A stretch of DNA of 11,510 nucleotides from the NCBI GenBank assembly GCA_025965815.1, contig JAOPWF010000692.1, positions 1 through 11,510 on the forward strand. The letters run 5' to 3'. Below the pieces are notes generated by a model. It saw nothing but the letters and a program-made list of their open reading frames with translations, searched no databases and had not been told where the DNA came from. A program made the translations under genes and the position numbers. Below, one piece after another: positions 2,969-10,602 of this stretch. Numbering within the stretch: position 1 is the stretch's first letter; each line of letters begins with the position of its first letter. Origin of the DNA: Mycobacterium sp. GTDB taxonomy: Bacteria; Actinomycetota; Actinomycetes; Mycobacteriales; Mycobacteriaceae.

Positions 2969-4033
2969 CTATCCGACCTCGTTATAAAACGCTACATGCG
3001 CGGCGGCGGCCGCATCCCAGCTGTAGGAGCGCGCCAGCCGCTGTCCGCCTTCCCGCCGGTACGCGTACTCACCGTCGAGCGCGCGGGCAAGCTCGGCCGT
3101 CATGGAGTGGTGGTCGTCGGCGTACTCGACGTGCTCGCCGAACACCTCGCGCAGCACCGGCAGGTCGCGCGCGACGACTGGGACCCCCGCGGCCAGCGCC
3201 TCCATCGCCGCCAGCCCGAAGCCCTCCTTGGTCGAGAAGAACGGCAGGACGGCAGCACCGGCCATCAGTCCGGGCATGTCCGCATCGTCGATGGTGCCCA
3301 GCATCACCGGTTCGACACCCAGTTCCCCGGCGCGTGCCTCGAACGCGTCCCGGTACGGCCGGTAGTCGAACAGGGTCTCGCCGCCGGCAAACACCAGCCG
3401 CACATCCGGCCTGCGCAGCGCGGCGAACACCTCCAGCAGGTCGATGCTGCCCTTGCGCGGCTCGATGCCGCCCACGGCCAGCACATAGTCGGAGAAGCGC
3501 GCCCGCCACGGGTCACCGACTCCGTCGTAGAAGCGTTGCGCGTCAACGCCGTTATGGATCACGGCTGGCTGCCGGCCCCAACCGTCGCGGACCTCGTGGG
3601 CGACAGCGCGGGAGACGCAGACGTGTGCGTACGGGCGGACGATGGCGCGCTCGTGGCACGCCGCAAGTTCCGGCGTGGTGAAGGTGTCCAGGTGATGCAC
3701 GGTCCGGATACACCGCCGCACCGCGTTGGCGCTGATGCAGTCCTGTGCGTGCACGATGTCGTACCGCCGGCATGCATCAGTAAAAGCCCTGCCCAGCAAG
3801 TGAATCGACCGCAGGATCCGCGGCCCGACCGGCTCGCCCTCGATCGGCGGGAAGGGTACCGCCGCCACGGTCACCGCCGGATCGACGGGCCGGTAGAAAG
3901 TGGTGTCGCCGCCACGGCCGAGCGTCCAGACCGTCACATCGTGACCGGCCCTGGCCAGTGCTTCGGCCAGCGCCAGTGTGTGCACGACGCCGCCGCGCGG
4001 TTTCGTCGAATAGGTCAGCAGCGCGATCCGCAT
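2969..4033 (-). CDS. MSMEG_0565-family GT4 glycosyltransferase (last Nit1C gene)
   Basis: GT-B fold, retaining GT4-type glycosyltransferase of 354 aa; donor and acceptor are unknown. The N-terminal Rossmann domain begins [20 protein letters not shown], where the GG loop is typical of GT4 acceptor/donor contacts. [11 protein letters not shown] (158-168) and [11 protein letters not shown] (186-196) mark the linker and the start of the donor-binding domain. The EX7E motif is E270-GFGLAAM-E278, inside [14 protein letters not shown]. No signal peptide or membrane segment is seen, so the enzyme is cytosolic or peripheral. The ATG (4031-4033) follows directly on the TGA of the preceding nitrilase-like gene with no spacer, so translation is probably coupled. 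In the Nit1C cluster of actinobacteria and proteobacteria a glycosyltransferase of this family is a regular member (TIGR04047 type), which suggests the pathway product or an intermediate is glycosylated. The family call is firm; the role is inferred. Confidence 0.9.
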
Positions 4034-4864
4034 TCAGGCCCTGACGGTGGGGTGATAGGAGTCGATCTGCCGCTCCCCCAGGTGATTCAGGACAGCGCGG
4101 GCCCGCTCGATCTCACGCGCGACGTCGATGTCGGCAACGGCCAGGCCGCCCTTGGACCAGGTTTTCGCGACGATGTTGCCACCGGGGTCAACGACCTTGG
4201 CCTGGCCGAGGAAGCGCAACGTGCCAGTGATCCCGGTGAGGTTGGACGACGCCAGCACCACCTGATTCTCGGCGGCCCGTGCCATGTCATATAGGTCGAA
4301 CAGCCTGGCCTGCCGGTCGTTCGGCATCCTAGCGGCCCGGTCGGTGACGCTGGCCGGCCACGCGGACAACGCCGCGATCACCTGCGCGCCACCGAGAGCC
4401 AGCGTGCGTGCCGACTCGGGAAAGGTCTTGTCGTAGTCGATCAGCATGCCGATCCGGCCGACCGGGGTGTCGAACGGCTCGAATCTGTCGCCCGCGGAGT
4501 AGATCAGGTTCTCCCGCGCCGGTTGATGCACCTTCCGGTGCCTGCCGAGGATGCCGTCGCCGCACAGGCAGGCCGCGGCGTTGTAGACGTTCACCCCGTC
4601 CCTTTCGGCGTATCCGACGCATACCGTCATCGGTCCGGACATGGCGCACAGCGCCTGCAGTTCCGGGCTGCCTGCGTCCAGTGTCGGTGGACGTTCGCCG
4701 GGGGACGGGTTGGACAGGCTGCCGATGTACCCGCCGAGGGTGGCGTCCGGCAGCACGAGCAGGTCAATCCGTTCGGCGCGCAACCGCTCGATGATGCCGC
4801 CCAGCTTGTCCATCGACCGCTCGATGTCGCGGCCGAAGTGTGCGGCCATCGCGGCGATCCTCAT
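4034..4864 (-). CDS. Nitrilase-like protein with catalytic Glu and Cys replaced by Asp (probable pseudo-nitrilase)
   Basis: Carbon-nitrogen hydrolase (nitrilase superfamily) fold, 276 aa. The three catalytic positions can be aligned with the intact paralogue two genes upstream. The Glu of LPEACLGGY is Asp40 in LPDATLGGY (codon at 4745-4747). The Lys is kept as K111 in HRKVHQP. The nucleophilic Cys of QICYDKAFPE is Asp143 in LIDYDKTFPE (codon at 4436-4438). Between DTPVGR and SAWP about 30 of 39 residues match the active paralogue, so the fold is preserved and this is no decaying pseudogene: the frame is intact throughout. A thioester mechanism is impossible without the Cys. It may be a regulatory or structural partner of the active nitrilase, or bind a ligand. 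The start ATG at 4862-4864 overlaps the TGA of the flavin oxidoreductase gene (ATGA). Longer in-frame extensions upstream lie inside that gene and are rejected. Confidence 0.92.
   Translation of the reverse strand: MRIAAMAAHFGRDIERSMDKLGGIIERLRAERIDLLVLPDATLGGYIGSLSNPSPGERPPTLDAGSPELQALCAMSGPMTVCVGYAERDGVNVYNAAACLCGDGILGRHRKVHQPARENLIYSAGDRFEPFDTPVGRIGMLIDYDKTFPESARTLALGGAQVIAALSAWPASVTDRAARMPNDRQARLFDLYDMARAAENQVVLASSNLTGITGTLRFLGQAKVVDPGGNIVAKTWSKGGLAVADIDVAREIERARAVLNHLGERQIDSYHPTVRA
4444..4474. repeat. Near-identical coding repeat, copy in the pseudo-nitrilase gene
   Basis: These 31 bases match 6894-6924 in the same orientation with one mismatch; 23 of them (4452-4474) are identical without a break. 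They encode the DTPVGR-IGM strand just before the catalytic Cys position. The match reflects common descent of the two nitrilase genes, possibly helped by gene conversion, rather than a mobile repeat. Confidence 0.85.
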
Positions 4865-6162
4865 GCCGCGTGGGTCCTCTCGTTCTTTTTCGTCCCCGCG
4901 CCACTGGCGATCTGCGTGTGCAGGTACTCCGCGTCGCGACCGACGGAGGCGAAGCGTCCGGATCCCCAGGTGTGCAGCCAGGGCAGCCCGAGGAAGTACA
5001 GGCCCGGCACGGCGGTGACGCCGCGACGGTGGCAGACAGCACCCTCGCCGTCGAAAACCGTTGCCTTGAGCCAGGAGTACTCGGCGGCGAAGCCGACGCA
5101 CCACACCACCGACGTGATCCCGGCCGACGCCAGGTCCAATGTGACCGGCTCGCGCGGGGGTCGCCACACCGGCACATAGCGGTCCTCAGGGGGCGCCGGG
5201 ATGGAGTTGCGTTCGATGTAGCTGTCGATGAGGTCCTTGATTTGCTCTGCCACGGCGTCGGCCCCGTCCAGGTTGCGTTCCAGGGTGGGCGCGAAGGTGA
5301 GCGTGCTGCCGTCGCCGGAGAGCAGCCGGCCGTAGAGCTGCATGCCTTCCAGGGCGAACGCGCGCAGGTCGATGTCGCGTCCCCCGTCGCGGCCGGTCAT
5401 GTAGTGGTTCGTGCTCTCCCGCTTGGCGACTCCACCCGCCTGCGCTTCGATCGGCACATCGTAGGTGCCGATCTCCGATAGCCAGGCCACACAGTCCCGA
5501 CCCCGGTAGAACCGCGCGCAACGCGGCGCCGTGCCGGTCACCAGGTGCACCGCCCGGCCCTCCAGATGCAGGTCTTCGGCGATCTGCGCCCCGGACTGGC
5601 CGGATCCGACGATCAGCACCTCGCCGTCCGGAAGCTGTTGGGAGCCACGGTAGTCGGCGGAGTGTAACTGAAACACGCTGGCGGGCAGGCGTTCCGCCAT
5701 ACGCGGCAGCTTTGGCTTCTGGTACCCGCCGGTCGCGACGACGACCTGGTCGGCGTGCATTGCACCCGCGGAGGTCGTCAGGTCAAACCCGCCGGCTGTG
5801 TCATTCCCGGCTCGTCCCCCGCAAGCGGGAGGTGCCGCCACCGCCTGGACGAGATTGGTGACCGTGACCCCCTCCCGCACCGGCGGCCCGAATGAGTCCG
5901 CGTAGTCCAGCACGAAGCGGTAGACCTCGTCACGCGTCATGAAGCCGTGCGGGTCGCCGCGGTCGTAGGGGAATCCGGGCAGGTCGCACTGCCAGTTCGG
6001 GGTGACCAGCGTGAAATTGTCCCAGCGCCGATCCCGCCAGTCGTGGCCGATTGAATCACGCTCCAGCACAACATGCTCGATGCCGGACTGCTTCAGATAC
6101 CAGGACATCGACAGCCCGGCCTGCCCCGCCCCGATGGCGACGACCTGGTGATGTTCGGTCAT
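4861..6162 (-). CDS. MSMEG_0569-family flavin-dependent oxidoreductase
   Basis: FAD- and NAD(P)H-dependent monooxygenase-like protein of 433 aa, related to the FMO/YUCCA group. The FAD-binding GxGxxG is GAGQAG at 11-16, after the first beta strand [18 protein letters not shown] (140-150) is the ATG-type motif. [10 protein letters not shown] (164-173) is in the place of the FMO-identifying segment. The NAD(P)H-binding GxGxxG is GSGQSG at 186-191. [11 protein letters not shown] and [16 protein letters not shown] form the C-terminal conserved region. It would use NAD(P)H and O2 to hydroxylate or oxidise an amine, sulfur or carbon centre; the substrate is unknown. The ATG at 6160-6162 overlaps the preceding TGA (ATGA) and has a GGGAG Shine-Dalgarno (complement of 6170-6174) seven bases upstream. 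Residues about 110-125 ([15 protein letters not shown]) are a low-complexity insert encoded by a palindromic stretch at 5799-5836. TIGR04046-type member of Nit1C clusters. Confidence 0.92.
5799..5836. repeat. Short palindromic repeat-like insert inside the flavin oxidoreductase gene
   Basis: The stretch contains a perfect 5-bp stem, CCCGC (5818-5822) and GCGGG (5825-5829), around an AA loop, within a GC-rich block flanked by the less conserved coding segment for [11 protein letters not shown]. It keeps the reading frame and falls in a surface-loop region between conserved strands. It resembles the small interspersed palindromes of high-GC genomes, but copy number cannot be judged from one window. 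Confidence 0.35.
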
Positions 6163-6461
6163 GCGCTCGCTCCCGGTGTCATGCGTAGCACGGTGACGTC
6201 GCCAGCCGTCTCCCCGTTGCCGTACCTGCGCCGCGCCGCCTGCAGCTCCTCGATCTGCGCGGCGGCCGATGTGCAGTACGTGCCGAACCTGGCCTTGACG
6301 CGCTCGCTGGCCTGAGTCAACGCGATAATAGTCAGCGACATGAATTCGTCGATCGGGTATGTCGCGCTGTCCTGCAGGTAGTCGTGGATGACCAGGGACG
6401 GCGAGTAGCACTGTTCGGTGACGCCGTCGGGCCAGCGGACGGTGAAGGTCATCTCAGGCAT
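6159..6461 (-). CDS. MSMEG_0570-family nitrogen starvation response protein
   Basis: Small protein of 100 aa, beginning MPEMTFTVRWPDG and continuing CYSPSLVIHDYL, the signature of the TIGR04042 family found only in Nit1C-type clusters. No catalytic motif is evident. A basic, Ala-rich helical stretch follows (SLTIIALTQASERVKARFG), with Cys18 and a second Cys near residue 61. No signal or membrane segment is seen. The ATG at 6459-6461 was chosen because it starts the conserved block. A longer in-frame reading from 6575 lies inside the nitrilase gene and adds an unrelated Cys/Ser-rich tail. The start overlaps the nitrilase stop by eight bases, and the stop overlaps the flavin oxidoreductase start (ATGA), so translation is coupled on both sides. 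It may be an accessory subunit of one of the neighbouring enzymes; function is unknown in all organisms as far as I know. Confidence 0.9.
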   Translation of the reverse strand: MPEMTFTVRWPDGVTEQCYSPSLVIHDYLQDSATYPIDEFMSLTIIALTQASERVKARFGTYCTSAAAQIEELQAARRRYGNGETAGDVTVLRMTPGASA

Positions 6462-7350
6462 GGGCGGACTCGCTGAACTGGCTGGTCTCGACGATGGACT
6501 GGTACAGGTCCGGTCTGCGGTCGCGCAGGTTGTACATCCCGCCGCCACGGGCCGCCTCGATGCGTTCAGTGACATCCACCTCGGCGGTCGCGAGCCCGGG
6601 CCGCACCCCGGTGGTCGCGATGACGTCCCCGCCGGGACCGACGATCTTCGCGCTGCACACGAACCGCAGCGAACCGAAGGTGCCCGCCTGGTTCGACGCG
6701 ACCCACACCACCTGGTTCTCCACGGCGCGCGCCTGGTCGTAGATGTCGAAGCGGTGCTTCCATCGGTCGTCCTCTAGGTTGGCGACGGTGGCGGTACGGG
6801 CGGTCGGCCAGGCGGACAGCGACGCGATGATCTCGGCGCCGTCGAGGGCCAGTGCGCGTGCCGCTTCGGGAAACGCCTTGTCGTAGCAGATCTGCATGCC
6901 CATCCGGCCGACCGGGGTGTCGAAGGCCGCATACCCCGAACCGGCTTTGTAACAGAGGTTTTCGCCGAGCGGCTGATGGACCTTGCGGTAGGAGCCGAGG
7001 ATGCCGTCGCCGGTCAGGGTAACCGCGGCGTTGTAGCGGTCCTCGCCGACGGCCTCGCAGAATCCCAGCGTGACGACCATGTCGCCGGCCATCGCCCGCA
7101 ACCGGTCGAATTCGGGTGCGTCGAGCGGGAACGCCGGCGGCAGCGCCTCGAGACGCCGGACCTTCTCGGCCTCGCTTTCGTCGCCGCCACCGAGGCTCGG
7201 GAGGTAGCCCCCGAGGCAGGCCTCGGGCAGCACCAGCAGCTGCGCGCCGAGGGATCGCGCCTCGTCGATGAGTCGCTGAATCGTCGTGAAGCACGCTTGC
7301 AGGTCGCGGTCGAAATCCGCGGCGGCGACCGAGATAACGGTGTGTGTCAT
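6454..7350 (-). CDS. Nit6803-type nitrilase, intact catalytic triad
   Basis: Nitrilase of the Synechocystis Sll0784 (Nit6803) family, 298 aa. It would hydrolyse a nitrile to the carboxylic acid and ammonia through a cysteine thioimidate/thioester. The triad is complete: Glu43 in LPEACLGGY, Lys123 in YRKVHQP and Cys155 in QICYDKAFPE (codon at 6886-6888). A further conserved Glu, E130, lies in PLGEN. Length and motifs match characterised Nit1C nitrilases, which act on aliphatic/aromatic nitriles and are needed for growth on cyanide in some pseudomonads. The substrate here is unknown. The ATG (7348-7350) overlaps the TGA of the GNAT/AIR-synthase gene by four bases, with an AGGA Shine-Dalgarno (complement of 7357-7360) six bases before it. 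A degenerate paralogue lies two genes downstream. The much longer in-frame extension upstream is a shadow of the preceding gene. Such enzymes commonly form dimers and helical oligomers. Confidence 0.95.
   Translation of the reverse strand: MTHTVISVAAADFDRDLQACFTTIQRLIDEARSLGAQLLVLPEACLGGYLPSLGGGDESEAEKVRRLEALPPAFPLDAPEFDRLRAMAGDMVVTLGFCEAVGEDRYNAAVTLTGDGILGSYRKVHQPLGENLCYKAGSGYAAFDTPVGRMGMQICYDKAFPEAARALALDGAEIIASLSAWPTARTATVANLEDDRWKHRFDIYDQARAVENQVVWVASNQAGTFGSLRFVCSAKIVGPGGDVIATTGVRPGLATAEVDVTERIEAARGGGMYNLRDRRPDLYQSIVETSQFSESAHA
6894..6924. repeat. Near-identical coding repeat, copy in the active nitrilase gene
   Basis: This is the partner of the direct repeat at 4444-4474, 2450 bases away. 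Recombination between the two would remove the MSMEG_0570-family and flavin oxidoreductase genes and leave one hybrid nitrilase gene. Confidence 0.85.
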
Positions 7351-8780
7351 GGCATGTCCTGTCGTGCCGGTCCCAGCCCCGTGACGGCGGCGGCGATGGC
7401 CGTGGTGGCCGCACCGTCGGGCCACCGGATGGTGACGAGCGGATCGGAGAGGGTCGCACGGAAGGTGCCGCACGCTCGGGAGGTTGCCGGGCCGGGCGAC
7501 ACGACGCACCGTCCGGGGGTGTCCGCGGTGATCATCGCGAAGCCGGGGAAACAGGTCAGCCAGTCGCCCGCGCGGGCGTCGGTCGGCGTGGGCACGTCTC
7601 CGATGGCGATCTCGGCGCGTAGTCCGCTGGCCTCGGCCATCATCCCGGCAGTGCCGATCAGGCCGGCCATGCTGACGTCCTTGGCGGCGTGCGGGGCGGT
7701 GGCGCCCACGATGCCGGCCAGCTGCCGTAGATCGGCGGGGCCGCGCCGGGAGGTCGAATCCCATTGCTGCCCGGTGTAACCGGGGCGCCAGCCGCCGGAT
7801 AGGTCGGCGGTGACGGTCAGCGCATCACCGGGACGGGCGCCGCCGCCGGGAACGGGCTGCTTGGTGTGCCCGAATGCGGTTACGGACAACGCGGCGGGAA
7901 CGCCGACCTGGGTGTGGCCGCCGAGCACTGGGACGTCCCACGCCTGCGATGCGTTGGCCAGGCCGCGGATGATGCGGGTCAACTGGGAGGCGGTCGGTGC
8001 GCCGACAGCGTCGAGCATGCCGGTGGCCGTGGCGCCCATCGCGGCGAGGTCGTTGAGGTTGACCAGTGCTCCGCACCAGCCTGCCCATTCGGGGTCGCGC
8101 GCCACCATCGACGGCAGGATGGCGTCGCAGGCGGCGACCATGCCCCCGGCACCAACCGGGACACCGTCGTCGCCCCGGAACTTCGATGGACCGAGGGCTG
8201 CCGGGTGACGCTCGAGCGGCTCGAGCACACCGGACAGCAGCGACTTGGTCGCCGCTGCCAGCCGGGCGAACCGGTCGCAGGGCCACCGCACGCGTAGATG
8301 TGGGGTACTGCCGATAACGGTGCGGCCCAACGTGATCCAGCCGAGCTCGCCGAACAGGGCCGCGTAACGCTGCTGAACGGTCGCCTCGAATCGCAGCACG
8401 CCGTTGGTGTCCGCCCATGCGCACGCCGCGCGAATCAAAGCCCGGCCGACGCCGTCGCCGCGGGCCGCGGGCGACAACACCAGCCGGCTGCCGGTCCACC
8501 AGCCCAGGCCGGGGTCGATGACGGGTGCGAGGCGGACCCCGCCCAGCAGATGGCCGGACGGGTCGAGGGCAACCAGGACGGTGGTGGCGGGGTCGGCGTC
8601 GAGGGCGTCACGGTCGGTGCTGGAGAACAGCTGTTGCTTCTCGACGAACACGTGTTGCCGCAGCGCGGCATACTCGGCGGCGATGGGTGCCGGCTGTTCG
8701 TCCACCGTGGTGATGAGGTAGCCCTGCGGCGGTGCGGCGGCTTCGCCGGAGAGTAGTGAGACGAGCAGGTTTTCGGTCAC
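7347..8780 (-). CDS. Fused GNAT acetyltransferase / AIR-synthase-like protein (MSMEG_0567; Sll0786-Sll0787 type)
   Basis: Two-domain protein of 477 aa. Residues about 20-180 are a GNAT N-acetyltransferase domain, with the acetyl-CoA loop ARGDGVGRALIRAA at 106-119 (R-x-x-G-x-G). Residues about 195-477 are a PurM/SelD/ThiL-superfamily domain: FRGDDGVPV (201-209) resembles the GDDaav metal-ATP motif, NLNDLAAMGA (241-250) the ND-aaMGA motif, and PVLGGHTQ (284-291) the GGHT/GGET loop. In Synechocystis the two parts are separate genes, sll0786 and sll0787. The superfamily activates an amide or selenide oxygen with ATP; the substrate here is unknown. The start is taken as GTG at 8778-8780, seven bases after an AGGAG (complement of 8788-8792). 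A second GTG six bases upstream overlaps the preceding TGA but is only one base from the AGGAG. The longer open frame to 9515 is antiframe shadow. The TGA overlaps the nitrilase ATG. Confidence 0.9.
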   Translation of the reverse strand: MTENLLVSLLSGEAAAPPQGYLITTVDEQPAPIAAEYAALRQHVFVEKQQLFSSTDRDALDADPATTVLVALDPSGHLLGGVRLAPVIDPGLGWWTGSRLVLSPAARGDGVGRALIRAACAWADTNGVLRFEATVQQRYAALFGELGWITLGRTVIGSTPHLRVRWPCDRFARLAAATKSLLSGVLEPLERHPAALGPSKFRGDDGVPVGAGGMVAACDAILPSMVARDPEWAGWCGALVNLNDLAAMGATATGMLDAVGAPTASQLTRIIRGLANASQAWDVPVLGGHTQVGVPAALSVTAFGHTKQPVPGGGARPGDALTVTADLSGGWRPGYTGQQWDSTSRRGPADLRQLAGIVGATAPHAAKDVSMAGLIGTAGMMAEASGLRAEIAIGDVPTPTDARAGDWLTCFPGFAMITADTPGRCVVSPGPATSRACGTFRATLSDPLVTIRWPDGAATTAIAAAVTGLGPARQDMP

Positions 8781-8782
8781 GA

Positions 8783-9862
8783 TCACGCTCCTGCCGCGGA
8801 GAGCAGGCCGCAGGCGCCGCAGGCCGCGCAGCCGGCCTGCTGGTCGGCGCCGGTCATTCCCGCAGCCCGCAGCAGTGAGGCGACGCGTCCGGTGACGTCG
8901 GCGACCAGGTCGGCCGATGGAGGGGCGGCGCCGTCGGAGGTGGCCAGCGAACCGGCGAGCGGCCGGAAAGGCACCACGAACGGATAGACGCCCATGTCGA
9001 TCAGTTCGTCGGCGGCGGCGACGATATAGTCGGCGCTGTCGCCGAGGCCGATGAGCACATAGGTCGACACCCGGTTGCGGCCGAACACGCGCACGGCTTC
9101 GGTCCAGGCTGCGCGGTACTCGGCCAGCGGGACCGTCGACTTGCCGGGCATCCACGCCCGCCGCACGTCGTCGTTCATCGACTCGATGTGGATGCCGATG
9201 GCGGTCGCCCCGGCCGCACGGAGCTCGCCGATGACGGACAGGTCCGTAGGTGGCTCGCACTGCACCTGGATCGGCAGTTGTGGGAGGACGGCCTTGACGG
9301 CCCGCACGCACCTGGCGAGATGTGCCGCGCCCCGGTCTTTTCCGTTGGTGGTTCCGGTGGTCATCACGAGCTGGGTGATCCCGTCCAGGCGGACCGCGGC
9401 CTGCGCCACCTCCGCTATCTGCCCGGGTGACTTCACGGCAACGGTGTCGCCGGCGTACAGCGACTCCTCGATGGTGCAGAACCGGCAGCGCTGCGACTGG
9501 CTGTAGCGGATGCACTTCTGGATGACGGTGGTAGCGAGCACATTGGTGCCGTGCAGGCGCGCGATCTGCTCGTAACTGGTGCCGTCGGCGGTGGTGAGGT
9601 CGTAGAACCGCGGCCGGGCGACCGGGTGCACCTGGACACCCGTGTCGACACCGTCTAAAAGCACACGGGTGCCGTCGATCACGAGCTCACTGGACGGATT
9701 GATGGGAATCGTCGCTCCGTTGCCGGCGATGCTGACGTGCCCGTCGTCCGATGGCCCGGCGCCGGCGCGGCGCGATACCGGCGCCACCATCCGGGCGCCG
9801 CGCACGGCCAGGTCCGCCCGGACGCGCAGGCCGGGGCCGGTGGTCAAGGGAACCGAAGGCAT
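8783..9862 (-). CDS. MSMEG_0568-family radical SAM protein with atypical cysteine motif
   Basis: Radical S-adenosylmethionine enzyme of 359 aa. The cluster-binding cysteines are probably C117, C126 and C129 (CIRYSQSQRCRFC), a C-x8-C-x2-C arrangement in place of the classic C-x3-C-x2-C. Downstream TIM-barrel landmarks are QLVMTTGTTNG (164-174), QVQCEPP (199-205), GIHIESMND (223-231) and YVLIGLGDS (268-276). A second triplet, C345-x2-C348-x2-C351, is near the C-terminus and could bind an auxiliary Fe-S cluster. The first ~80 residues form a beta-rich N-terminal domain of unknown role. The reaction is unknown; the family (TIGR04043 type) is confined to Nit1C clusters. The ATG at 9860-9862 has an AGGGG just upstream, which overlaps the stop of the first operon gene; the spacer is eight bases. 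Family recognition is firm; active-site assignment is by motif only. Confidence 0.92.
   Translation of the reverse strand: MPSVPLTTGPGLRVRADLAVRGARMVAPVSRRAGAGPSDDGHVSIAGNGATIPINPSSELVIDGTRVLLDGVDTGVQVHPVARPRFYDLTTADGTSYEQIARLHGTNVLATTVIQKCIRYSQSQRCRFCTIEESLYAGDTVAVKSPGQIAEVAQAAVRLDGITQLVMTTGTTNGKDRGAAHLARCVRAVKAVLPQLPIQVQCEPPTDLSVIGELRAAGATAIGIHIESMNDDVRRAWMPGKSTVPLAEYRAAWTEAVRVFGRNRVSTYVLIGLGDSADYIVAAADELIDMGVYPFVVPFRPLAGSLATSDGAAPPSADLVADVTGRVASLLRAAGMTGADQQAGCAACGACGLLSAAGA
8788..8792 (-). promoter_or_regulatory. Shine-Dalgarno deciding the GTG start of the GNAT/AIR-synthase gene
   Basis: AGGAG on the minus strand lies inside the 3' end of the radical SAM gene. The GTG at 8778-8780 is seven bases away, an ideal spacing. 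The GTG at 8784-8786, which forms a GTGA overlap with the upstream stop, is one base away. Spacing favours the first; either gives essentially the same protein. Confidence 0.7.
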
Positions 9863-9870
9863 ATTCGCCC

Positions 9871-10401
9871 CTAGACCATGTAGGTCGAGTTGATGATGGC
9901 GCCCTTGCGGGCATAGTGGATCACGGCGTCCTGGACATCGAGGGGATGCGCGGGGATCACGCCTTCGATGAGGTCTTCCTCGCGACCTCCGTGCAGCGCC
10001 AGGCCGAATCGGCAGCAGAACACCGTGCCGCCCTCTTTGATGAAGCTGCCCAGGGCGTCGTTGATGTTCTGCTCACCGGGGAACGCGCTGTCACCGGCGG
10101 TAGGGAATCCGCGGGTGGCCAGGCAGTTGATCGCGCCGGGTCCATAGAAGTAGATGGCCGACTCGAAGCCCTTGCGCAGTGCGCGGGTCGCCTGCAGGAC
10201 CGCGACGAAGCTGACGGACGATTCGTGCGCGATGCCGTGCACCAGGGTGAAGTACGTCTCGCCGTCATTGGCCTTGTAGTCGGGAAAGATCTTGGTGCCG
10301 CCGTAGATGTTGGAACCCTTGGGCAGCGACGGGTGCGGGATCTCGCCGAGCGACTTCTCGATGTTGGTGGCGATGGCGTCGTCGATTTCGGTGGTGGTCA
10401 T
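9871..10401 (-). CDS. MSMEG_0572/Sll0783-family nitrogen starvation response protein (first Nit1C gene)
   Basis: A 176-aa cytosolic protein of the family that includes Synechocystis Sll0783, a nitrogen-starvation-induced protein whose loss affects polyhydroxybutyrate accumulation. The region FTLVHGIAHESSVSF to IYFYGPGAINCLATRGFP, with alternating strands and helices, suggests a DsrE-like alpha/beta fold (inference). Conserved-looking cysteines are C93 in GAINCLATRGFP and the pair C129-C130 in TVFCCRFGLALHGG. No nucleotide-binding or catalytic signature is evident. The ATG (10399-10401) has a strong AGGAG (complement of 10407-10411) five bases upstream, the best ribosome site in the cluster, as expected for an operon leader. 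The stop TAG is eight bases before the radical SAM gene. Function may be sulfur or persulfide handling, or sensing, but neither has been shown. The family assignment is firm. Confidence 0.92.
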   Translation of the reverse strand: MTTTEIDDAIATNIEKSLGEIPHPSLPKGSNIYGGTKIFPDYKANDGETYFTLVHGIAHESSVSFVAVLQATRALRKGFESAIYFYGPGAINCLATRGFPTAGDSAFPGEQNINDALGSFIKEGGTVFCCRFGLALHGGREEDLIEGVIPAHPLDVQDAVIHYARKGAIINSTYMV

Positions 10402-10451: not shown

Positions 10452-10602
10452 CGCCACATTGCTTCGGAATGGTTTCATCAGGAATAACAGCTGATTTCGT
10501 AATCCTGTGAGCTTGCTGCGTCCACCGACCGCGCAAAGATGCCGTCTACCAGCAGATTTCGCGATGCTTCACAGCATATGCCAAGACGCAAACGGAAGAG
10601 AG

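Follow-up and report, generated by a model that had tools for sequence, protein, structure and literature searches.

We find that PSN, a nitrilase-fold protein encoded within an 11,510-nucleotide stretch of Mycobacterium sp. DNA (contig JAOPWF010000692.1; this whole stretch is hereafter the window), is a real, conserved and old member of its fold that lacks the catalytic triad by which the nitrilase superfamily is defined. It has aspartate at the site of the nucleophilic cysteine and is encoded in the same operon as a triad-complete paralog, NIT. As every member examined has the aspartate and selection maintains the gene, PSN is probably a working protein, either a non-hydrolytic partner or an enzyme with a different chemistry, and not an ordinary amidase.

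At the residues corresponding to the catalytic positions of the superfamily (40, 111, 118 and 143 in PSN), PSN has Asp, Lys, Glu and Asp, whereas NIT has Glu, Lys, Glu and Cys. Around the cysteine site, from F131 to W169, the two are identical at 29 of 39 residues, in agreement with the ‘about 30 of 39’ of an earlier note on this DNA, which had also correctly read the location of the gene, its intact frame, its ATGA coupling and the residues Asp40, Lys111 and Asp143. The frame has 831 bases, from ATG to TGA, and the ATGA overlap (positions 4861–4864) is with the preceding flavoprotein gene FLAV. The TGA of PSN in turn abuts the ATG of the next gene, a glycosyltransferase (GT), and its GC content at third codon positions (0.874) lies within the range of its neighbors (0.850–0.881). 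By family score and by overall predicted fold, PSN belongs to the nitrilase superfamily (PF00795), but it carries D/K/D in place of the Glu-Lys-Cys triad. Neither paralog reaches the cutoff of the Nit6803 family nitrilases (TIGR04048; 30.3 bits for PSN and 37.8 for NIT versus 502.6) or that of the N-carbamoylputrescine amidases (TIGR03381; 69.3 and 104.5 versus 410.25). The ‘active nitrilase’ that the earlier note saw beside PSN thus has an intact triad, from which it may be presumed active, but it is not of the Nit6803 family. The two aspartate codons of PSN are one base and two bases away from the Glu and Cys codons of NIT, and the same residues are seen at these sites in closely similar, non-identical copies (P0001/P0002, 99%; P0003/P0004, 93%); a sequencing or assembly error is therefore not a reasonable explanation, and we reject it.

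To describe the family, we pooled the window protein with the best 120 matches from each of three protein searches (4467, 4186 and 3046 matches), which gave a set of 361 sequences, whose 360 homologs are all distinct and none identical to the window protein; since only the best 120 per search were pooled, distant members are under-sampled. Asp143 and Lys111 are both found in 361/361, and Cys at position 143 in 0/361. Position 40 is less strict (Asp in 356, His in three, Asn in one and Glu in one), and position 118 is Glu in 324 and Asp in 37. Whole-genome searches in two overlapping samples, one with 397 genomes from the order and one with 396 from the phylum, yielded 65 PSN copies, including that of the window. 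Asp143 is present in 65/65, with exceptions at position 40 (Gly in L149, His in L156) and position 118 (Val in L157 and L158, Asp in L115). A further copy, L118, has PSN as its best match (49%) but the triad E/K/E/C; it was left out of the 65 because a tree places it with the triad-complete copies (SH-aLRT 99), outside the PSN clade. Lastly, a scan of genomes with the peptide patterns MLIDYDK and AWPAS[VI]TD found 80 loci, which together with the window have Asp143 in 81/81; this count is biased, as one of the patterns contains Asp143, and we rely on the other two sets instead. The sole protein with both Glu40 and Asp143 (P0334) sits inside the PSN clade, which indicates that position 40 moves while position 143 does not. 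Across the sampled family, the change to Asp143 is thus absolute and the change at position 40 is not, which refines the earlier observation of both. Five copies (in G029, G280, G395, G225 and G188) were flagged as containing a TGA, but this is the natural C-terminus in all five, so that none of these genes is interrupted. The genera in which PSN is listed include Mycobacterium, Mycolicibacterium, Nocardia, Antrihabitans, Rhodococcus, Williamsia, Gordonia, Modestobacter, Geodermatophilus, Jatrophihabitans, Actinoplanes, Dactylosporangium and Amycolatopsis.

PSN is under purifying selection, with a ratio of nonsynonymous to synonymous substitution rates (dN/dS) as low as that of its triad-complete paralog. 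By the Nei-Gojobori method, over pairs with a PSN dS of 0.05–1.2, the median is 0.200 for PSN (2636 pairs) and 0.218 for NIT (2314), compared with 0.247 for GT (2633), 0.190 for the radical SAM protein RSAM (2479), 0.256 for the GNAT-AIRS fusion (2634), 0.258 for FLAV (2190) and 0.108 for the MSMEG_0572/Sll0783 family protein DSRE (2226); as the pairs are non-independent and the genes GC-rich, these values serve for comparison between genes only. The earlier note had proposed that a non-canonical nitrilase is kept by selection beside a complete one, and had named orthologs with mostly Glu/Lys/Cys as a sign of the opposite; the absence of cysteine from the whole set of 361 and the low dN/dS bear its proposal out. 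In both of our trees, which are quick searches with SH-aLRT support only, a single branch separates the PSN rows from all others (support 94 with 39 rows, 95 with 55 rows). From these one-clade trees and the spread over the genera above, it follows that the change is old and, as far as sampled, single. A contrast is offered by four extra NIT-like copies from one family (L159–L162, in G012, G045, G026 and G036), which form a separate clade outside PSN and have mutually varied, incomplete triads (D--G, EQ-C, EQ-C and GN-S; gaps lie close to the Lys); we read these as loss without constraint. With the cutoffs used, queries with GT and with the MSMEG_0572-family protein found no match in two of these genomes (G045, G036).

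The predicted structure of PSN is a nitrilase fold. It was modeled with 55 sequences, as a model with 20 had been of low quality in the pocket region. We matched nine pocket positions by hand to the N-carbamoylputrescine amidase MtCPA, chosen by alignability and omitting MtCPA Tyr130, Ala183, Ile184, Glu187 and Trp277. Six of these nine hand-picked positions are at least 99.7% invariant in the 361 sequences, compared with 56 of 276 positions overall (Fisher p 0.003). Their average conservation is 1.000 in PSN (81 rows) and 0.978 in NIT (76 rows), so that conservation of the pocket is no weaker in PSN than in its triad-complete paralog. Two positions separate the families: PSN has invariant Gln185 and Leu188, where NIT has invariant Trp and Arg (76/76). 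We read this conservation pattern as a pocket that is apparently still strongly constrained despite the loss of the cysteine. R256, H261 and Y270 in the region of the C-terminal arm are present in 361/361, and across 157 rows the two paralogs share 56 invariant positions. MtCPA is described as forming octamers, in which swapped C-terminal arms of neighboring subunits wall the pocket entrance. Given the retained arm residues and the shared invariant positions, mixed PSN-NIT dimers seem feasible, albeit unproven.

Our preferred explanation, held tentatively at a probability of about 0.4, is that PSN is a non-hydrolytic binding or partner subunit, perhaps of NIT. PSN would then represent a family of nitrilase-fold proteins, old and fixed, that do not hydrolyze and belong to the actinobacterial version of the Nit1C (gpr) nitrogen-starvation operon; the family would be derived from the same stock as NIT by a Cys to Asp change that occurred once, as far as sampled, and left most of the pocket in place. 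The Asp143-Lys111 pair may preserve the charge pattern of the pocket, with the aspartate standing in for the thiolate, and PSN could bind an amide, nitrile or carbamoyl compound of the pathway without cleaving it. We infer that PSN might serve a complex as its binding or regulatory subunit. Mixed PSN-NIT dimers would be the likeliest form, and in these the conserved C-terminal arm of PSN could wall the active site of NIT, in the way that neighboring subunits do in MtCPA.

The co-occurrence of the two proteins fits this explanation. In the order sample, all 62 genomes with PSN (63 copies) have a NIT-type match; that of G253 is listed as partial, yet the triad can be read at its locus (L138). 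The phylum sample adds two genomes (G604, G758), each with both proteins, which brings the co-occurrence to 64/64 genomes. Among the pattern-scan loci, NIT is found in the same locus in 75/80; of the remaining five genomes, four carry a full-length NIT at another place, and the fifth (L074) has part of one at the end of a contig.

Several other findings weigh against it. The constant neighbor of PSN is GT, not NIT: with adjacency defined as less than 200 bases between matched regions, PSN stands directly before GT in 80/80 pattern-scan loci and in 63/64 whole-genome loci (L118 not included), whereas NIT stands directly before PSN in 0/80 and 20/64. The exception is G188 (L155), in which the only GT match of the genome (43%) lies about 91 kb from PSN on the same contig; by matched regions, GT also comes after PSN in L127 and L138. 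Two genomes of another family (G492, G513) have Nit1C genes and a triad-complete NIT, but no PSN at 1e-30, and they gave no GT match at 1e-40; in G492, the Nit1C genes are spread over different contigs. Moreover, NIT has shifted between lineages in sequence and gene order, and PSN less so. In L005–L084, NIT comes after RSAM in 54 loci, as in the window, and before it in 19; its identity to the NIT of the window is 71–79% in the first arrangement (except L083, 59%) and 54–59% in the second, while that of PSN to its window counterpart is 65–76% and 66–69%, respectively.

Tree-distance correlations over 98 loci and seven genes point in the same direction. The overall partial correlation is 0.077 for PSN-NIT, 0.119 for PSN-GT, 0.72 for PSN-DSRE and 0.76 for NIT-FLAV. 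Within three groups of 51, 20 and 27 loci, PSN-NIT reaches 0.20, 0.12 and 0.21, which indicates no special link, and PSN-GT 0.19, 0.22 and 0.19; both sets are to be seen next to PSN-DSRE (0.31, 0.14 and 0.45), which exceeds PSN-NIT. As they have no species-tree control, the correlations neither prove a link to DSRE nor rule out a complex with NIT, but they lend such a complex no support, and we do not regard PSN as an obligate NIT partner on grounds of coevolution. The earlier note's suggestion of a regulatory or mixed-oligomer partner of NIT is consistent with co-occurrence, but it is weakened by the correlations, by the two genomes with NIT in which no PSN was found and by the constancy of GT as neighbor.

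The other explanations are less probable in our view. PSN could be an enzyme of new chemistry that uses Asp143 with Lys111 as a nucleophile or acid-base pair on a pathway intermediate, and for which an acid at position 40 would not be strictly required. We consider this unlikely, albeit worth serious attention, because Asp143 and Lys111 are invariant while position 40 varies, in five of the 361 sequences and two of the 65 genome copies, which suggests that selection holds this pair and not the old triad; the fixed, family-specific Gln185 and Leu188 point the same way. These observations lead us to question the earlier note's rating of such chemistry as ‘less likely’. On the other hand, the same residues could be held by binding alone, and we know of no member of the nitrilase superfamily with an aspartate nucleophile.

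It is also rather doubtful, to our mind, that PSN is a binding protein which works with GT or DSRE instead of NIT, and which senses, carries or presents a metabolite of the pathway. Its constant place before GT would fit, as would the missing GT match in the two genomes where NIT and Nit1C genes occur and PSN was not found. For DSRE, there is the highest overall partial correlation of PSN, with PSN-DSRE ranking third and second of 21 pairs in two of the groups, and the arrangement in G188, where PSN lies beside its own DSRE copy and apart from NIT. However, the DSRE signal may merely mirror shared vertical descent and falls to 0.14 in the third group, the PSN-GT correlations are low throughout, and PSN without NIT was not found in the 64 genomes. 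An obligate partnership with GT is not general, since a Burkholderia plasmid cluster has GT without an annotated second nitrilase and G188 has PSN without an adjoining GT.

A broader version of the catalytic proposal, which we regard as improbable, holds that the nitrilase fold was re-used once, early in actinobacteria, for a cysteine-free Asp143-Lys111 chemistry, and that the pathway there would need PSN and NIT together to replace the single Nit6803 of other phyla. Finally, although both canonical catalytic residues are lost, it is scarcely credible that PSN is a strain-specific loss, a decaying functionless duplicate or an assembly artifact, as this is refuted by the conservation of Asp143 across actinobacterial families, the dN/dS of 0.20, the agreement of close non-identical copies and the flagged TGA codons being natural stops.

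The operon occupies the minus strand of the window, which represents one contig of an assembly of 877 contigs (80.9% complete), and comprises eight genes in the order DSRE, RSAM, GNAT-AIRS, NIT, MSMEG_0570, FLAV, PSN and GT (Table 1). A weak GlnR-box-like sequence precedes it; the window holds seven matches to the GlnR consensus versus 5.55 expected by chance, which is no clear excess.

Table 1. Features of the operon and of the PSN gene in the window.
Feature	Position	Strand	Remarks
PSN, nitrilase-fold protein, Asp in place of the nucleophilic Cys	4034..4864	-	276 aa
Asp40 codon of PSN	4745..4747	-	site of the catalytic Glu (Glu48 in MtCPA)
Lys111 codon of PSN	4532..4534	-	catalytic Lys kept
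Glu118 codon of PSN	4511..4513	-	second conserved Glu (Glu132 in MtCPA)
Asp143 codon of PSN	4436..4438	-	site of the nucleophilic Cys; aligns with the C146A-variant position of 6ypa
GT, MSMEG_0565 family glycosyltransferase	2969..4033	-	next downstream of PSN; TIGR04047, 437.8 bits versus cutoff 259.85
FLAV, MSMEG_0569 family flavin-dependent oxidoreductase	4861..6162	-	ATGA overlap with PSN; TIGR04046
MSMEG_0570 family nitrogen starvation response protein	6159..6461	-	TIGR04042
NIT, PSN paralog with intact Glu/Lys/Glu/Cys	6454..7350	-	49% identity to PSN
MSMEG_0567 family GNAT / AIR-synthase-like fusion	7347..8780	-	TIGR04045, TIGR04050; start codon uncertain
RSAM, MSMEG_0568 family radical SAM protein	8783..9862	-	TIGR04043
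DSRE, MSMEG_0572/Sll0783 family protein	9871..10401	-	first gene of the operon; TIGR04044
GlnR-box-like sequence (weak)	10461..10476	-	60 bases upstream of DSRE; 1 mismatch to the consensus

Three side observations concern the operon and its relatives. At positions 6454–6456 of the window, the frame beyond the TGA of NIT is open into FLAV. For M. smegmatis, selenocysteine has been proposed at the TGA of MSMEG_0571, with read-through into MSMEG_0569 (PMC6039565). Among 93 loci with both genes close together, the frame is continuous and open in 24 (in one of these after TAG), continuous but with stops in 35 and shifted in 34; with only 24/93 in frame and open, such read-through is not conserved. 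In G188, three contigs (C14, C27 and C50) carry MSMEG_0572-family copies at their ends; PSN adjoins one of these copies and NIT adjoins another. The Rhodococcus qingshengii plasmid pN9T4-1 (L173) carries the whole eight-gene operon on a linear replicon, where annotated IS256-family transposase genes flank it on either side, and transfer of the operon via this plasmid is possible.

Nit1C clusters occur in several phyla, and their chemistry is settled in few: cyanide assimilation has been described for some Pseudomonas (PMC11049912), and the M. smegmatis genes MSMEG_0565–0572, termed gpr, are described as conferring GlnR-dependent peroxide resistance (PMC6039565). Actinobacteria appear to run this pathway with a pair of nitrilase-fold proteins, one of which is unable to use the cysteine chemistry of the superfamily. 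If it were known whether PSN binds, activates or catalyzes, the Nit1C pathway could be tested in a laboratory strain, and database names on its entries such as ‘predicted amidohydrolase’ or ‘nitrilase’ could be corrected.

Judged by its gene content, the operon is an actinobacterial version of Nit1C/gpr. Nit1C as described, with seven genes, includes no second nitrilase, and its nitrilase is of subfamily 1 (Nit6803) (PMC1199592). The window has six of these seven gene kinds together (MSMEG_0572/Sll0783, RSAM, GNAT, AIRS, 0570 and 0569), as well as the GT of the variant described there for Burkholderia and Rubrivivax. Unlike the described cluster, it has NIT and PSN in place of a Nit6803-type nitrilase, and GNAT and AIRS are fused in a protein that passes both TIGR04045 and TIGR04050. 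The Burkholderia plasmid cluster mentioned above (L172), by contrast, has a Nit6803 (580.1 bits to TIGR04048).

The NCBIfam names of the window genes use the gpr numbers, and this numbering matches the loci with NIT before RSAM, which puts MSMEG_0566, by position alone, at the place of PSN. MSMEG_0566 has been termed a ‘putative aliphatic amidase’, with a possible role in supplying nitrogen assimilation (PMC6039565); if it is equated with PSN by gene order, the D/K/D family points away from this role. Under nitrogen starvation, MSMEG_0566 mRNA is reported to be 8.94-fold higher in the wild type than after deletion of glnR (PMC4222082), and a table on nitrogen limitation gives it a value of 2.96 (PMC4617892).

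Among the titles and abstract openings of the papers listed, we recognized no publication that describes a bacterial pseudo-nitrilase. The nearest solved relatives in the superfamily include MtCPA (5h8i) and the Pyrococcus nitrilase/amidase (3ivz, 1j31, 6ypa). PSN resembles these enzymes in its predicted fold, the Lys, the second Glu, the Tyr and Pro of the pocket, the position of the nucleophile elbow and the residues of the C-terminal arm; it differs from them by Asp in place of Cys in all 361 sequences, and by Asp at the Glu48 position in 356. Two more distant systems invite comparison. In Trypanosoma brucei, AdoMetDC and its prozyme likewise pair an active enzyme with a conserved, catalytically dead paralog; they are unrelated protist enzymes, for which complex formation and activation are described as proven, while both would be inferred for PSN (PMC5201418). 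The sorghum nitrilases NIT4A and NIT4B2 are described as two paralogs that act as one complex (PMC5154151), as PSN and NIT might.
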